Shown here piece by piece: positions 17,846 through 56,111 of a stretch of 64,000 nucleotides of DNA; within the stretch, counting starts at the first letter, position 1, and each line of letters starts with the position of its first letter. The notes under the pieces are model-generated. The model made no database searches and had not been told where the DNA came from. It saw only the letters and a program-made list of their open reading frames with translations. Made by a program: the position numbers and the translations under genes. Location of the stretch: assembly GCA_011389555.1 (NCBI GenBank), contig JAABUD010000278.1, positions 1-64,000 of the forward strand, written 5' to 3'. The stretch comes from Desulfotignum sp. GTDB taxonomy: Bacteria > Desulfobacterota > Desulfobacteria > Desulfobacterales > Desulfobacteraceae.

Positions 17846-19846
17846 TCACACCCGGGCCCCGGCGGCAAATCCCTGGTGGATGGCATCAAATGCCGTCCCC
17901 ACGCGGGCGGCGTCACCCACCACTTCATAACGGAGACCGGTTTGTTTCACCTTTGTTTCAAGGGGGTTGTAAGGCACGGACCCGGCTGCCACCACCACGG
18001 TGTCCACAGACAACTCCCGGGTCTGGCCCCGGGTGTCAAACACCAGCCCCTCCGGCGTGATCCGGGTCACCGTTGCATGGCTCAGTGTTTCAATCCCGGA
18101 CCGGCCAAGATCCTGAAGCATGCCCCATCGAGTGGATTTGCCGATATCTGTGCCGATATGGTCCGTCATTTCCAAAAGGGTGATTGACGCGGTCCCGGTC
18201 ACTGCCATTTCAAACAGGGTTTCCGGGTCTTCGGCCCGGTTCACCAGAAGAAACTTCAGCACATCCGCAGGCAGGGTTCCCTGCTCCGCCAAAAACAGGG
18301 CGGTTTCCACCCCCACGGCATTGCCGCCCACCACGGCCACACGAAAGCCGGTCCGGACGTTGTTTTGCAACACATCCCAGGCCTGGACCACATGGGGCAG
18401 ATCCATGCCTTCCATGGCGGGCATGGCCGGTATCGCACCCGTGGCCAGTATCACGGCATCCGGATTTTCTGTGGCCATCACGTGTGAATCCAGATCCGTA
18501 TTGAGCATCACGGGAATTTTTTCTGCCGCCATCTGGGTTTCCAGATCTCTGGCCAGCCGGGCGAACAGCTCTCTGCCCGGTGGCGCCGCCGCCAGATACA
18601 ACTGTCCCCCCGGACGGCTTGTCCGTTCGTATACCACCACCCGGTGCCCCCGCCGGTGGGCAGTCAACGCCGCCATCATGCCCGCGGGTCCGGCACCGGC
18701 CACCAGAATTTTCCCGGGAGATCCGGTTTTTTCAATCTTGCGGTCGGCTTCATGGCCGGCCAAAGGATTGCAGAGGCATTCCACTGATTTGAGTTTGAAC
18801 AGGTTGTCAAAACACCCCTGGGCACAGCCGACACAGTGGACAATATCATTTTCCCGGCCCTGTTTCGCTTTTTCGGGAAGCATGGGGTCCGCGATCAGGC
18901 TTCTGCCCATGGCCACCATGTCACAATGCCCTTTTGCCAGAATATCCCTGGCAGTCTCCGGGTCACTGATGCGGTGAGAGGCGATCACAGGGATATTGAC
19001 CTGTTCCTTGATACCGGCGGCCAGGTAGGAATAGGCCCCTTCCGGCACCCGGGCCGTGATCTGGGGCACCCGGGCTTCGTGCCACCCCACGTTGATGCAC
19101 AGGGCATCCACCCCTGTTTTTGCCAAAGCTTGCGCATAGGTTTTGAGTTCCGCCCGGGTGTTGCCGCCGGGCATGAAATCATTGCCGTTCATGCGCACGA
19201 TCAAAGGAAACTCTGGACCCACCGCACGCCGCACCGCATCCATCACCTGAAGCCCGAACCGCATCCGGTTTTCCAGGCTGCCGCCGTATTCATCGGTGCG
19301 ATGGTTGGTCAAGGGAGACAGAAACTCACTGATGAGATAGCCGGTGCCGCTGAGAATCTCCACCGCGTCAAACCCCGCCTTTTTCACCCGCAGCGCGGCC
19401 TGGGCAAACCGGTCGATGGTCTGTTCGATTTCCTGGACCGTCATCTCTTTGGGCTCTTCTTTTGTCAGGCGCGAAGCAATGGCAGACGGGGCCACCGGCT
19501 GCCGCCCCTCCAGAAAAAAAGAAAAATTGTACCGGCCCGCATGATTGAGCTGGACCGCCCCTTTGGATCCATTGTCCTGAATGGCCGATGCCAGACGGGA
19601 CAATCCCGGAAGGAACCGGTCATCATGGGCCCCGATATTCTGGGTGTTGCCGGACCATTCATCCACGGTGGCAAATCCCACACAGATCAGGCCGGCCCCG
19701 CCTTTGGCCCGCTGTGTGTAAAAATCGATGATTGGATCTGTCACTTCGTATTCCACGCCCATTCCCAGATGCATGGCCGGCAGATAGATCCGGTTCTCCA
19801 GCGTCAGGGTGTTTATGGTAACGGGCTCAAACAGGGGATCTCTCAT
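17846..19846 (-). CDS. NADH:flavin oxidoreductase / 2,4-dienoyl-CoA reductase-like
   Basis: A three-domain flavo-iron-sulfur enzyme of 666 residues, the FadH/trimethylamine dehydrogenase plan. An old-yellow-enzyme FMN barrel comes first (PAMHLGMGVEYEVTD, with LNHAGRY and YGGSLENRMRF). A 4Fe-4S motif follows in HCVGCAQGC plus a later LCNP (C-x2-C-x3-C-x11-C). An FAD domain (LVAGAGPAGMMAALTAHRRG) with a nested NAD(P) domain (AVVGGNAVGVETALFLAEQ) ends the protein. It reduces an enoate or dienoyl-CoA with NAD(P)H. GGAGG lies 6 bases upstream of the ATG. The tiny membrane gene with an in-frame TGA sits 77 bases upstream on the same strand and may share the transcript. Confidence 0.87.
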   Translation of the reverse strand: MRDPLFEPVTINTLTLENRIYLPAMHLGMGVEYEVTDPIIDFYTQRAKGGAGLICVGFATVDEWSGNTQNIGAHDDRFLPGLSRLASAIQDNGSKGAVQLNHAGRYNFSFFLEGRQPVAPSAIASRLTKEEPKEMTVQEIEQTIDRFAQAALRVKKAGFDAVEILSGTGYLISEFLSPLTNHRTDEYGGSLENRMRFGLQVMDAVRRAVGPEFPLIVRMNGNDFMPGGNTRAELKTYAQALAKTGVDALCINVGWHEARVPQITARVPEGAYSYLAAGIKEQVNIPVIASHRISDPETARDILAKGHCDMVAMGRSLIADPMLPEKAKQGRENDIVHCVGCAQGCFDNLFKLKSVECLCNPLAGHEADRKIEKTGSPGKILVAGAGPAGMMAALTAHRRGHRVVVYERTSRPGGQLYLAAAPPGRELFARLARDLETQMAAEKIPVMLNTDLDSHVMATENPDAVILATGAIPAMPAMEGMDLPHVVQAWDVLQNNVRTGFRVAVVGGNAVGVETALFLAEQGTLPADVLKFLLVNRAEDPETLFEMAVTGTASITLLEMTDHIGTDIGKSTRWGMLQDLGRSGIETLSHATVTRITPEGLVFDTRGQTRELSVDTVVVAAGSVPYNPLETKVKQTGLRYEVVGDAARVGTAFDAIHQGFAAGARV

Positions 19847-19923: not shown

Positions 19924-20115
19924 TCACTCTTTTTTGTCATTTCCGGACGGCGGGCGGAAATCGTTGATATTCGTGGTTTGTTTTGTTTCGGTTTTCTTGC
20001 CTGTCACCTGACAGGAATCCCGCATTCAGGTGGAAATTCCCATTTTGGGCAGAATATACATCTGCAGCAACAGATAAATGGCTACAAACCCGAGAATCCA
20101 CAGCATTTCTTTCAT
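19924..20115 (-). CDS. candidate small membrane selenoprotein (in-frame TGA at codon 30)
   Basis: Translation from an ATG with a perfect AAAAGGAGG site gives 29 residues: a short start (MKEM), one membrane helix (LWILGFVAIYLLLQMYIL, about residues 5-22) and PKMGIST. Then comes TGA at 20026-20028. The same frame stays open for 33 more codons beginning MRDSCQ and ending in a charged tail before a second TGA at 19924-19926. Reading the first TGA as selenocysteine gives a 63-residue protein with a U-x4-C pair (U30, C35) just after the helix. A hairpin with an AGGT loop lies 16 bases past the TGA, where a bacterial SECIS belongs. A good promoter is at 20148-20176. If the TGA is only a stop, the gene still encodes a 29-residue membrane peptide. 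The function is unknown; a membrane thiol/selenol redox role is a guess. Confidence 0.6.
20000..20028 (-). promoter_or_regulatory. SECIS-like hairpin downstream of the in-frame TGA
   Basis: On the minus strand the TGA (20028-20026) is followed by ten bases, then CCTGTC (20015-20010), loop AGGT (20009-20006) and GACAGG (20005-20000). This is a perfect 6-bp stem. In E. coli fdhF the SelB-binding loop also begins AGGT and lies about 18 bases past its TGA. Here the loop begins 17 bases past. Lower stem pairing is poor, so the call rests on loop, stem and distance. Confidence 0.5.
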
Positions 20116-20147
20116 GATTCCTCCTTTTAAAAAAATGGTCAGATTGT

Positions 20148-20297: not shown

Positions 20298-20357
20298 AAG
20301 GGATAATTTGCAGCATTTTTGCCATTTTTACCCTCATAAATGAACGGGAGAGATCCA

Positions 20358-20882
20358 ATGACCAGAAAAATCCAGAATATTCTTTTTGCCTCTGACCTGT
20401 CCGTGGACATGAAACCGGTTTTTGAGCAAGCCGTTACCATGGCCACCTACACCGGCGCCAACCTGATCGTGCTTCACGTGATGGAAGACGCCAGCCCGGC
20501 CGCTCAACGACAGGTGAGAATGGCATTTGGTGAAAATCTTTACAAGGAAATCAGAGCCAAACATAAATCCGGTGCCCAGGATCTGCTCATCGGTAAGAAT
20601 GTGGATGCGTTGAGGATCCGCCAGGCCATTGCCGGATTTTTTGAAGACCGGGAAAATGCCCCGGCCGATGCGGCCTCTCCCATTAAAAAAATTCTGGTGG
20701 CAGAAGGCCATTCCATTGCCGATGGAATCGTTTCCTCTGCCGTGGAAGAAGATTGTGCCTTCATCGTCATGGGGTGCAGACAACAGGGTCTGGTTGCAAA
20801 AGCCATGGGAGACAAACTGGTTCGCAAAGTTTTGAAACGGTCCTCTGTGCCCGTATTTGTGGTCCCCCGGGACAGGGAATAA
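20358..20882 (+). CDS. universal stress protein (UspA family)
   Basis: A single UspA domain of 174 residues. It opens with IQNILFASDLSVDMKPVFEQ and ATYTGANLIVLHVMED. The C-terminal part has DCAFIVMGCRQQGLVAKAMG and VRKVLKRSSVPVFVV, which align with the family's ATP-binding G-x2-G-x9-G region, though the spacing is imperfect, so nucleotide binding is uncertain. There is an insert of about 50 residues in the middle (linked to KIRAKHKSG-like and GFFEDRE segments), as in many anaerobe Usp proteins. The start at 20358 follows GGGAGAG by 5 bases; the ATG at 20340 has no ribosome site. It converges with the MFS gene 2 bases away. Confidence 0.85.
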   Translation: MTRKIQNILFASDLSVDMKPVFEQAVTMATYTGANLIVLHVMEDASPAAQRQVRMAFGENLYKEIRAKHKSGAQDLLIGKNVDALRIRQAIAGFFEDRENAPADAASPIKKILVAEGHSIADGIVSSAVEEDCAFIVMGCRQQGLVAKAMGDKLVRKVLKRSSVPVFVVPRDRE

Positions 20883-52344: not shown

Positions 52345-54381
52345 TCAAGCCGTCTGTTTTTCATAACAGATCAGTCCGCACTGCAAGCACCGGTTCGCTT
52401 CTTTGCGGGCATTTTCCTCGGAAAATCCCGTGGCCGCAGCCACGGGGTGGGCCAGATCATCCCAGGTGGTTTTGGGGCTGGTTTCCACATGCTCGATTTC
52501 AGAGATATTCTGGATCCGGCTGTATTGGGTGATCACCCGTTCCGGGTCCTGAAATTCCAGCCCATACATGAAATGGTGAACGGCTGCCGCCGCCTTTCGA
52601 CCCCCATTGATGGCCGCCACGGCAGACGGATATTCAGAGATCACATCCTGTTTTGACAACAGGCCGATTTGAGACGGGACATCCGGTTTTTTGGGCAGTT
52701 CAAGCCCCTCCCAGGTCAGGGCACCTGCGGCACTGGTAATGATTTCACCGGTTTCATCGGTTTCTTTCACCGGCACGAACACCAGTTCCGGAAACCGCCC
52801 GGCACCGAGGATCACTGTGTCTGCTGCGATCTTTTGTTTTTCACCGGAACCCAGATCCACGGCTTCCACCCCGGTCAGGGTCTCTTCCCGGCCCATCACT
52901 TTTGTGATACCGGCATGGTACATCACGGTCACGGCCTGAGCCGCGTCATCATCCAGACTCGTGAGATCCACATCCGGGTCGTCTTCCGGTTTTCTGGACA
53001 CCACGGTCACGGTTTCCACCCCTTTTGCCAGCAGGGTTTCGACAGCTGTTGCCAGATATTTCCCGCCCCCTGCGATCACGGCATGTTTACCGCAATCCAC
53101 CTGGATTTTATCGTCCCGGCCGCTGCGCACCAGATCGATGAGCAGAGAAGCGCCGGGAAACAGCGGTGTGGGGTTGTCCCCTTCGTTTCTGGCCATGCGG
53201 GAATCCCATCCCCCCGTGGCGATGAACACGGCATCGAAGCCTTCTTCTGCCAGCAGGTGCGGAATGGTGACGTCGGTTCCCGCGGATACGCCGGTCTGGA
53301 TGGTGACCCCCAGGTCCTGAATTCCTTCAATATCCCAGTCCAGCAGATCCATGGTCAGGCGGTCTCTGGCAATGGCCGTGCGCAGGATGCCGCCCAGTAC
53401 GTCGGTTTTTTCGAAAACCGTGGGGGCATGGCCGAGGCGCGCCATGAAATACGCGGCAGACAATCCTTCCACACCGCCGCCGATCACGGCCACGGTCTTG
53501 TCCGTGGCCGGGGCTTTATAGGGCTGAATCCGTTCCGGCTGCTTTCTCTCGTAATCGCAGACAAACCGCTTCAGATCGTTGATGGCAACCGTTTCATCCT
53601 GGAGCAGCCGGCGGCAGTCAAATTCGCACAGCTGCGGACAGATCCGGGAGATAACCGCGGGGAAAGGCATTCTTTCCTTGATCACGGCCAGAGAACCGGC
53701 ATAGTCCCCTTCCTGGATCCGTCCCACATATTTTCTGATGTCCAGGCCGGAAGGACAGGCCCGCTGACAGGGCGTGGTACAGTCTTCCACGGTGTATTCC
53801 CGGATGATCCGCCGGGTCACGGATGTGAGACGGATGATGTTTTTGGGACAGATCTTTTCACAGGCCCCGCATCCGGTGCAGTTTTCTTCATTCACCACGG
53901 GCAGCCCGTCCGGCCCCATGGACAGGGCGTTGAACATACAGGCGGTCACGCAGGTGCCCAGACCCAGGCAGCCGATATGACAGACTTTCATGCCTCCCAG
54001 AAGCATGGCCGCGGCCCGGCAGTCTCTGATTCCCTGATAGGCATAAGCCAGGTCTGCCTTGTTGTTGCCATAGTAACAGCCCGGGGCGGCAAACTCCGGT
54101 TCCGTGTCGGTCACCGTCACCCCCATGATGCCGGCAATGGCCTGGGCCACATCATCCCCGGCTGCCACACAGGAATTGACACTGGCTTTTCCCTCCACAA
54201 TGGCCTGGGCATTGGCCGTGCACCCGGGCAGTCCGCATCCCCCGCAGTTGGCGCCGGGCAGTACATCGTCAATAGCCAGAACCTTGGGATCCTCATACAC
54301 ATAAAACGCCTTGGACGCGATCACCAGGGCCGTGCCGATGACGACCCCCAGTCCCCCCATCATCAGAATCGATTGAATCAT
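52345..54381 (-). CDS. RnfB-like ferredoxin fused to GltD-type NAD(P) oxidoreductase
   Basis: A 678-residue fusion. Residues 1-27 form a membrane helix. Residues 28-100 are the RnfB 4Fe-4S domain with C46/C49/C54/C71 (GANCGGCGLPGC). Two ferredoxin clusters follow (CVTACMF region and NCTGCGACEKICPKNI). From about residue 195 a GltD-type module starts with its own cysteines (CTTPCQRACPSG, ICPQLCEFDCRR). It has an FAD fold VAVIGGGVEGLSAAYFMARL and a nested NAD(P) fold, and ends with RCLQCGLIC. It could pass electrons between ferredoxin and NAD(P)H at the membrane. The partner genes rnfC, D, G, E and A are absent here. GAGGAT precedes the ATG. Confidence 0.87.
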   Translation of the reverse strand: MIQSILMMGGLGVVIGTALVIASKAFYVYEDPKVLAIDDVLPGANCGGCGLPGCTANAQAIVEGKASVNSCVAAGDDVAQAIAGIMGVTVTDTEPEFAAPGCYYGNNKADLAYAYQGIRDCRAAAMLLGGMKVCHIGCLGLGTCVTACMFNALSMGPDGLPVVNEENCTGCGACEKICPKNIIRLTSVTRRIIREYTVEDCTTPCQRACPSGLDIRKYVGRIQEGDYAGSLAVIKERMPFPAVISRICPQLCEFDCRRLLQDETVAINDLKRFVCDYERKQPERIQPYKAPATDKTVAVIGGGVEGLSAAYFMARLGHAPTVFEKTDVLGGILRTAIARDRLTMDLLDWDIEGIQDLGVTIQTGVSAGTDVTIPHLLAEEGFDAVFIATGGWDSRMARNEGDNPTPLFPGASLLIDLVRSGRDDKIQVDCGKHAVIAGGGKYLATAVETLLAKGVETVTVVSRKPEDDPDVDLTSLDDDAAQAVTVMYHAGITKVMGREETLTGVEAVDLGSGEKQKIAADTVILGAGRFPELVFVPVKETDETGEIITSAAGALTWEGLELPKKPDVPSQIGLLSKQDVISEYPSAVAAINGGRKAAAAVHHFMYGLEFQDPERVITQYSRIQNISEIEHVETSPKTTWDDLAHPVAAATGFSEENARKEANRCLQCGLICYEKQTA

Positions 54382-54618: not shown

Positions 54619-56111
54619 TCACCCGTTTTTTTCCAGCAGGCCCGCCTTTGCCGGAATCTGTGACACCCGGTTCAGCATACCGGCCAGGCCCCACCGGACC
54701 GCGGCCCTGAACACCGGCCGTACCGCCAGCACCCTGAGCAGCACGTGAGCTGTGCGGTGAAACGATTTCCGGTTGGCTGCCGTATTGAACAAAGCCACCA
54801 TCAACGCGTCATGGTCCCGGTCTTCTTTTTGCAGCCGAAGGGTGCTGCGCTTCAGCAGGACCTGGTCCACATAATCGGCCCGGATATGCCCGTCTTTCAT
54901 GACCCGCTCATACAGCGGGGTACCTGGATAGTACATCAGTTTGTGGTCATAGATTTTCACGGGCCGTTCAATGGGATGCCCGGGAATCCGCTTCAGAATA
55001 TCCAGGTAGAACCGCAGCACCGCATATTTGTCGTCCAGGGTGTCATAGGGGTTGTCCGAGATCACATCGATCATCACCCGGATGCCCCGGGCCATGACCA
55101 TTTCCAGTTTGTCCAGGTACGCGCGCCGGTCCAGGGAACGGTTGAATATCTCCCGGCTGATCCGGGTGCTGCCGGACTGCAGCCCGATCTTCAGGTACCG
55201 CAGATCCAGGCCGCTGTTCACCAGAATATCCAGCTTTCTTCGGGTAATCTGCCGGGTGTTGGCCTGGACATAGAACACCGGCAGATCGATCTGATCCATG
55301 TACTGTGCAAGAAACCGGGTCATCCGGTCTTCTGAATTGAGAAAAAAATCATCATCATCGACGATAATCCGCTTCAAATGGGGAATATGGTCCTTTGCCC
55401 ACGCCAGCTCCTCGATGACCCGGTCCACGGCTACCTTGCGGACATAGGGGCCTTTGCCCTCAAACAGGGTCATGAGCCGGCTGTTCAGGCAGTAGGCACA
55501 TCCGTAGGGGCATCCTCTGACCATCAGCACGCTGTATGTGGACAAAGAGGCCGGGATCTGTTGTTTCATGGACGTCAGGCCCGATTCGGTCAGCACCCGC
55601 CCGTTCTCCAGATCCACCCGGGGGATGGGCAGTTCGTTGACATCCAGCATGGGCGGCAGGGGATTGATGACCGGATCACCGTCCGGCGACACAAACCCCA
55701 GGCCCGGTATCTGCTCAACCGGCACATGATTGAGCAGCTGTTCCATGACAGTTTCTCCTTCACCGGCGCACACCAGGTCCGCATCCTCCAGAAACTGAAC
55801 CGGATCGGCAATGACGGGGGGCCGCCCCAGATCACCGGGGCCGGAATCCGGTCTTTCAGGTATTGGGAGATCTGACGGCACCGGGGTATCAGATGGGTGG
55901 TCAGAATCGTGATGCCCACCAGGTCGCAATCCTGGCAGTATTTGGCCAGGATCTCGAGGGCCCGGGCCGGCATCGGCTCAAACACGGCCTCTTTGCGGCT
56001 TTCGTAATGGATGATGGACACCCGGAACCCCCGAAAGGTCAGGTACGCCCCCAGATGTCTGACACTGAAATTTTCAATATGGGCATTGTTGATGAGCACG
56101 GCATGTTTCAT
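54619..56111 (-). pseudogene. radical SAM/B12-binding-domain protein, frameshifted
   Basis: The N-terminal part (MKHAVLINNAHIENFSVRHL ... YLKDRIPAPVIWGGP) is a B12-binding-like domain. It is read from 56111 to a run of six C at 55816-55821. From there homology continues in another frame: PVIADPVQFLEDADLVCAGE, the radical SAM motif RGCPYGCAYC (CxxxCxxC), LRYLKIGLQSGSTRISREI and a C-terminal helical part ending at 54619. One extra C would restore a protein of about 497 residues. This is a broken gene, a sequencing error or a slippage-controlled gene. Members of this group modify lipids, tetrapyrroles or natural products; the substrate is unknown. It follows the glutamate-synthase-like gene and the methyltransferase remnant on the same strand. 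Confidence 0.75.

Follow-up and report, generated by a model that had tools for sequence, protein, structure and literature searches.

A probable family of small membrane-anchored selenoproteins, apparently uncatalogued, in Desulfotignum and across its phylum

Introduction

The locus considered here raises two questions, namely whether a TGA codon in the middle of a very short gene of a Desulfotignum genome is read as selenocysteine (Sec, U) and, if so, what a membrane peptide of this size would use it for. A preliminary description of the same DNA had proposed that the TGA encodes Sec and forms a redox site with a nearby Cys. Based on comparison with relatives from the same family, order, and phylum, we conclude that the gene almost certainly represents a selenoprotein family, and very probably one that combines this identity with the predicted membrane anchoring. 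The reading of UGA codon 30 as Sec appears strongly supported, and the mid-gene “stop” codon, almost certainly a Sec codon, has kept the gene hidden. More tentatively, we propose that the product may act as a redox peptide at the membrane surface, using Sec30 together with Cys35.

The gene and its parts

The gene is encoded on the minus strand of the window, i.e. the whole 64-kb stretch of DNA analysed; a plus-strand reading of 19924-20115 gave nothing of interest. The preliminary description, which named no strand, had listed a strong ribosome site, a 29-codon peptide, an in-frame TGA, and 33 further codons, and each of these is present on the minus strand, the ribosome site being AGGAGG. The Cys that it placed five residues past the TGA is encoded by the TGT at 20013-20011 (position U+5), and its 6-bp hairpin with an AGGU loop was recovered at 20015-20000, with the stem starting at base 11 and the loop at base 17 after the TGA. 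The reading frame runs from the ATG through 28 more sense codons, the TGA, and 33 sense codons to a final TGA. The predicted peptide is MKEMLWILGFVAIYLLLQMYILPKMGIST-U-MRDSCQVTGKKTETKQTTNINDFRPPSGNDKKE, in which codons 1-29 correspond to MKEMLWILGFVAIYLLLQMYILPKMGIST and U to codon 30; it begins with MKEM, reads GISTUMRDSC around Sec, and ends in KKE. The features are:

19924..20115, minus strand: probable selenoprotein coding sequence, ATG at 20115, 63 residues, final TGA at 19926-19924
20120..20125, minus strand: ribosome-binding site AGGAGG, 4 nt upstream of the ATG, seen in the sequence
20044..20112, minus strand: codons 2-24, single hydrophobic helix and presumed membrane span with the conserved Leu22-Pro23 inside (AlphaFold2 and Pro conservation)
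20026..20028, minus strand: TGA codon 30, almost certainly read as selenocysteine (TGA in 112/112, 109/109 further members, and 19/19 weak-match genomes)
20011..20013, minus strand: TGT codon of Cys35 (U+5), candidate resolving thiol (Cys at U+5 in 106/112)
20000..20015, minus strand: putative SECIS hairpin with a stem of 6 bp (CCUGUC/GACAGG) and an AGGU loop that lies 16 nt from the UGA (stem covariation among distant members)
17846..19846, minus strand (same as the gene): downstream neighbour, NADH:flavin oxidoreductase of the Old Yellow Enzyme type (PF00724), context only, not conserved across the phylum
20340..20882, plus strand: divergent upstream neighbour, universal stress protein (PF00582), context only

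Rfam matches in the window were limited to two tRNAs. Elsewhere in the window, a radical-SAM-like protein (recognized by eye) appears to be divided between two ORFs that overlap in different frames (54619-56111, minus strand), reflecting either an assembly error or a real frameshift, and a 678-residue protein (52345-54381, minus strand) looks, by eye, like the fusion of an RnfB-like iron-sulfur domain with an FAD/NAD oxidoreductase.

Distribution of the family

Within the GTDB family of the source genome, 72 of the 86 genomes contain a match at E<=1, of which 68 reach E<=1.4e-6. Every match better than 1e-5 spans the in-frame TGA, and the four weaker genomes (E above 1.4e-6) probably represent chance matches. 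For the order and the phylum, we used profile A1 (43 members) and the broader profile A2 (63 members), with a Cys placed at the Sec column in both. Profile A1 retrieved the gene from 302 of the 389 order genomes at E<=0.01. These cover 129 of the 150 genera and, counting good-quality genomes only, 167 of 201, with a TGA in every row among the matches listed. In the phylum sample, the gene was found at E<=0.001 in 152 of 395 genomes with A1 and in 168 of 395 with A2 (142 of the 327 good-quality genomes for the latter). Judging from their names and taxonomy, we take the order and phylum searched to be sulfate-reducer groups (Desulfobacterota). The gene thus appears to belong to a family spread through the phylum that, apparently, has not been catalogued as a selenoprotein family. 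Two gene copies per genome occur in G048, G061, G081, and G084 (own-family search) and in G547 (phylum search).

A scan of genome contigs with short patterns taken solely from the window protein yielded two relatives, in a SeepSRB2 genome and in Desulfamplus. Among viral contigs, one unconfirmed stretch fits the pattern, the plasmids searched contained no relative, and the PDB search returned a single meaningless match (E 0.33).

Detailed counts refer to a non-random set of 112 members, composed of 72 loci (70 own-family matches and two named loci) and 40 distant loci. Two of its members, L010 and L033, are identical in sequence, and three own-family matches with E<1e-5 (in G032, G035, and the second one in G038) were left out. 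Members of this set are 46-76 residues long, with a median of 52. A second set of 109 members comprises loci fetched after the hairpin test described below had been fixed and played no part in devising it. The A2 listing for the phylum (150 rows, 149 genomes) is made up of the source genome, the 40 distant loci, and these 109 loci; the other 19 genomes, with weak matches, were read separately.

Searches of protein family databases returned nothing convincing. The window protein had no match in NCBIfam release 20.0 at E<=10, and in Pfam it matched only DUF4418 (E 0.06), at 14.1 bits below the cut-off of 27. At E<=0.1, the 63 members of A2 matched 8 NCBIfam and 14 Pfam families, with at most six members matching any one of them and 0.0021 as the best E overall. 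Among these weak matches was the peroxiredoxin PrxQ model NF053650 (NCBIfam), found in 6 of the 63 members with a best E of 0.0076, which we took for chance. Table 1 of the 119-family selenoprotein catalogue of 2026 (PMC13188914) lists no matching family, although supplementary tables may mention one. In the literature covered, supplementary tables aside, the family appears to be new. According to PMC12013277, Cys homologues now appear to exist for every known selenoprotein, and the deep-Sep filter may drop those without. As prediction filters on Cys homologues, this may plausibly explain why the family is missing from the 119-family catalogue, NCBIfam, and Pfam.

Selenocysteine machinery

All three machinery genes that the preliminary description had named as a check, selA, selB, and selC (tRNA-Sec), were found in the source genome, with scores of 593 bits for SelA, 335 bits for SelB, and 76.9 bits for tRNA-Sec, each above the cut-off of its family. 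In the phylum sample, 353 of the 395 genomes encode tRNA-Sec, including 157 of the 168 gene-positive genomes, and the other 11 gene-positive genomes encode SelB. SelB was sought in 24 of the 42 genomes without a tRNA-Sec match, namely these 11 and 13 of the 31 gene-negative ones. Six of the 24 lack both tRNA-Sec and SelB, and none of the six contains the gene. Conversely, many genomes with the Sec machinery lack the gene, so that the machinery is not a predictor of its presence.

The codon at the selenocysteine position

The DNA behind all 168 gene-positive phylum genomes was read, and TGA was found at the Sec position in every one of them, with no case of Cys, TAA, or TAG. The same codon occupies this position in all 112 members of the first set, all 109 further members, and all 19 weak-match genomes. 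For the 109 loci, all three stop codons were treated as neutral in translation, giving TGA no advantage over TAA or TAG. In 108 of them, TGA falls exactly in the Sec column; in L273, the column holds GGG and the TGA follows one codon later, after a one-residue insertion. Two rows of the first phylum search without a stop (G718 and G713) were alignments that merely ended before the TGA position. At their ends, these genes use all three stop codons, with 53 TGA, 42 TAA, and 17 TAG in the 112 members and 35, 36, and 38, respectively, in the 109 further members, and the invariance of TGA at the Sec codon is therefore not a stop-codon preference.

The preliminary description had named a lack of Cys homologues at position 30 as an outcome that would refute it, and this outcome did occur, as none was found in the 168 phylum genomes. 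Both profiles carried Cys at the Sec column and so would have scored any Cys form no lower. Cys homologues are usual for selenoproteins, although they do not strictly define them, and with the position invariant (TGA in 112/112 and 109/109), their lack is not evidence against Sec here. The family is apparently Sec-only, with no Cys-for-Sec form within the phylum searched by profile. In four loci of the weak-match set (L160, L161, L163, and L164; family f146, genus g291), two in-frame TGA codons make the products candidate double selenoproteins, with PSUGAP at the family Sec position and PTUDGP or PTUDGQ, followed by Ser/Thr and Cys, near the C terminus.

A SECIS-type hairpin behind the TGA

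The hairpin was assessed across the family with a strict test that demanded a contiguous stem of at least 5 bp and a loop of 3-6 nt with G and then G/U at its start, located 14-26 nt from the UGA, without an energy limit. It is passed by 104 of the 112 members, compared to a mean of 20.1 and a maximum of 34 in 200 synonymous resamplings, and by 151 of 2240 other TGAs in the loci of the 112. For the 40 distant members, 32 pass (4.8 expected, maximum 10), and among the 109 further members, for which the test was left unchanged, 88 do so (mean 13.6, maximum 23; other TGAs 115 of 1322). This leaves 8 of 112 and 21 of 109 members that fail.

The position of the loop varies among the passing members. 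It lies 16 nt from the UGA in 76 of the 104 and in 19 of the 88, and 23 nt from it in 14 of the 104 and 38 of the 88. RNAalifold found no consensus for a set of 13 hairpins, because it mixed registers with different loop-UGA distances, and the 23-nt class was then counted alone. In its 14 members from the first set, hardly any of the stem sequence is retained, yet 98% of the stem cells pair and 35 cells are double-changed; the percentage paired is partly selected because the strict test had pre-selected these members. Fairer measures are the pass rates of 32/40 and 88/109 and the slid controls, in which the covariation score dropped from 0.929 to 0.057-0.284.

The preliminary description had called the hairpin SECIS-like. 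The bacterial SECIS model, as given in PMC13188914, describes a loop of 3-9 nt with G in its first two bases, a stem of 4-16 bp, a distance of 16-37 nt from the UGA, and a folding energy of <= -7.5 kcal/mol. With its 4-nt loop AGGU, 6 bp, 16 nt, and -8.5 kcal/mol, the hairpin in the window lies within all of these limits; in the family, 104/112 and 88/109 members pass the strict test. Allowing looser stems without an energy limit, 111 of the 112 members pass compared to 308 of 560 controls, and with the published limit of -7.5 kcal/mol, only 72 of the 112 pass compared to 143 of 560. Folded alone and compared with shuffles, the window hairpin is unremarkable (z -1.95 for 51 nt, z -0.69 for 39 nt). 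The case for a SECIS-type function is carried by the comparative evidence and not by single-sequence folding.

Conservation and predicted architecture

The family shares the motif LP(K/R)xG(I/V)xT-U-Mxx(A/S)C between the helix and a charged tail. In the 112 members, Pro at U-7 is invariant (112; 108 of the 109 further members), followed by Gly at U-4 (111), Thr at U-1 (108), Cys at U+5 (106, encoded by 77 TGT and 29 TGC), and Met at U+1 (94). Conservation past the TGA, on which the preliminary description had made its proposal depend, is evident in that 110 of 112 and 104 of 109 members have a Cys between U+4 and U+6. This Cys is missing from 2 of the 112 (L144 and L145) and 5 of the 109, and in the weak-match set it is shifted, later, or absent in several. 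Given these exceptions, a U-x4-C mechanism cannot apply to every member; what stays constant in the site is Sec, whereas Cys is usual but not universal. Members without Cys at U+5 include L145 and L155 of family f101, with UGMP/UGVP forms, and L144, L159, L263, and L269 of family f107, with ULIPQNRQ, ULAPVNRQ, ULVPMNRQ, and ULMPNRQ forms.

Within the genus, codons +1 to +12 show 114 non-synonymous and 47 synonymous differences, unlike the helix with 178 and 260, respectively. This excess of non-synonymous changes suggests that selection on the protein sequence of the tail is weak beyond its first residues.

AlphaFold2 predicts one helix, residues 2-24 (mean pLDDT 91 for residues 1-10 and 88 for 11-20), and no secondary structure in the remainder. 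Confidence is low past the helix, and overall the model has a mean pLDDT of 66.9 and a pTM of 0.38. Neither this model nor the Pfam search revealed a thioredoxin-like domain. The predicted helix agrees with the preliminary placement of Sec just outside the membrane helix, and with its one hydrophobic helix, some 20 residues long and flanked by charges, the peptide has the predicted features of a single-span membrane protein. The net charge around and after Sec (up to 32 residues) averages +2.6 in the 112 members, compared to -0.4 for the first four residues, and the Sec-side stretch is more positive than the N terminus in 101 of them. By the positive-inside rule, Sec and the tail would thus lie on the cytoplasmic face.

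Alternatives to selenocysteine

Could the TGA be an ordinary stop, with the 29-residue helix as a complete peptide and the downstream part translated as a second ORF by termination-reinitiation at TGA-ATG? An ATG directly follows the TGA in 94 of the 112 members and in 67 of the 109 further ones, and another start-like codon does so in 9 and 15, respectively, as reinitiation would require. Nonetheless, 9 of the 112 and 27 of the 109 members have a codon there that is unable to start translation (e.g. GCT, GGC, CTC, or ATC), and an ordinary stop would not explain why all members use TGA when TAA and TAG are freely used as final stops in the same genes. It would also need neither a covarying SECIS-type hairpin nor a restriction to genomes with the Sec machinery, and we regard this explanation as scarcely credible. 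Only slightly better is the prospect that the hairpin is an RNA regulatory element, such as an attenuator or a binding site, with the protein conservation after the TGA as a by-product of the RNA. Codons +1 to +12 do show fewer third-position differences per codon within the genus than the helix (87 in 12 codons vs. 341 in 29), and their mostly non-synonymous changes are expected where RNA structure matters. However, in the 14 members of the 23-nt class, the Cys codon lies outside the stem, yet 13 of them retain Cys at U+5 and the remaining one at U+6, and in the family this residue persists across TGT/TGC changes (77/29). Moreover, the hairpin shifts and changes its sequence, but its loop G and a spacing within the bacterial SECIS range stay, making a purely regulatory element very improbable. 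We therefore retain the reading of UGA 30 as Sec that the preliminary description had put forward, for which the invariance of the TGA, the conservation past it, the SECIS-type hairpin, and the Sec machinery all argue.

Possible function and gene context

According to our model, SelB with Sec-tRNA would decode UGA 30 as Sec, guided by a hairpin whose G-containing loop lies between 16 and about 26 nt downstream of the UGA. The product would consist of the helix (residues 2-24), the motif, and a charged, apparently unstructured tail at the cytoplasmic face; of the functions considered, that of a surface-anchored redox switch or reductase seems the likeliest. The Cys four residues beyond Sec (U-x4-C) suggests a selenenylsulfide couple: Sec30 would attack an oxidised substrate at the membrane, Cys35 would resolve it via a selenenylsulfide, and thioredoxin or another thiol donor would reduce the latter.

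Neighbouring genes differ among loci and are not conserved across the phylum. In the own family, a thioredoxin gene adjoins the selenoprotein gene in 15 loci, divergently oriented in all but L060, where both share a strand. It immediately precedes the selenoprotein gene, with the same orientation, in L113 and L127 (family f103) as well as in L117 (f105), where the genes have a 4-base overlap. Loci with thioredoxin next to the gene thus span three GTDB families (f1, f103, and f105). In L116, a pyridine-nucleotide-disulfide reductase is encoded upstream, with one small ORF between. Although the association is eye-catching, thioredoxin is not significantly enriched near the gene among the distant loci (3 of 117 nearby ORFs vs. 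4 of 283 farther ones, p 0.42), and its proximity is a weak lead towards thioredoxin-fed redox chemistry. In L118, L120, L128, and L129 (families f119, f167, and f98), two convergent genes, named by eye and clustering, follow at a distance of two to three genes from the selenoprotein gene and encode a membrane protein resembling CcdA and a TlpA-like thioredoxin lipoprotein.

A selenoprotein of this kind may also work without redox chemistry, as part of a larger membrane complex, be it a small subunit or a regulator, with Sec serving there as a metal ligand or in a structural role. Sec is never swapped for Cys in the 168 phylum genomes read, an unusual trait for a thiol redox protein, the conservation of Cys35 is not strict, and the peptide is too small for an obvious substrate pocket. 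Set against this are the lack of a conserved partner gene across the phylum and the proximity of Sec and Cys, the usual layout of a redox pair, and we consider a subunit role less likely than a redox one, albeit worth keeping in mind. We see much less reason to favour a selenium-status switch, in which the 63-residue form would be made with enough selenium and the 29-residue helix without, their ratio acting as a signal at the membrane. Although the helix is complete before the TGA and each mRNA could yield two products depending on the Sec-tRNA supply, the same is true of any selenoprotein with a late TGA, and nothing points to a function of the short form, so that such a switch seems improbable.

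Returning to the proposed surface redox peptide, the family may, as a tentative overall picture, represent a membrane peptide that is ancestral in the phylum and selenium-obligate, has no Cys version, and ranks among the smallest known selenoprotein families. Its Sec-Cys pair at the cytoplasmic surface might carry out a reaction beyond the reach of sulfur, and it would probably have been missed through the Cys-homologue filter. The family is common (302/389 order genomes, 168/395 phylum genomes), yet absent from the 119 families in Table 1 of PMC13188914 and from the NCBIfam scans. It offers a compact natural system for studying what selenium, and not sulfur, can do, with a peptide small enough for synthesis.

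Comparison with known systems

Compared to bacterial SelB/SECIS selenoproteins, the family shares the conserved in-frame TGA, a downstream hairpin as in the published model (G in the first two loop bases, 16-37 nt; PMC13188914), and tRNA-Sec, SelB, and SelA in the genome. It differs from them in that no Cys homologue was found, and in its architecture of one helix and a short tail without a thioredoxin fold. The UxxC/CxxU redox selenoproteins catalogued in PMC13188914 (Table 1; thioredoxin-like, SelW-like, DsrE-like, and other types) likewise combine Sec with a nearby Cys and probable redox chemistry, whereas the present family has a U-x4-C spacing, a single helix in place of a thioredoxin-like domain, and no convincing NCBIfam or Pfam match. 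Other small or uncharacterised selenoproteins, the “Dual CXXC motif small protein” OS_HP3/DW (NF041197) and the hypothetical proteins DG (NF049953) and DF (NF049942), come, according to Table 1 of PMC13188914 and to PMC12013277, from Desulfosarcina and Desulfosediminicola. Their Sec motifs differ (RxU/GxU and GUxG, with none given for the last), and DG, DW, and DF have Cys homologues according to the latter source (PMC12013277). None of the three models was among the matches of the 63 family members at E<=0.1.

Eukaryotic SELENOK and SELENOS offer an analogy in the way they may work, with one membrane helix and Sec on a short flexible stretch. In SELENOS, Sec188 reportedly forms a bond with Cys174, a proposed selenenylsulfide. 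The Sec position, the decoding signal, and the domain of life are different, and the likeness drawn here to the present family is one of layout.
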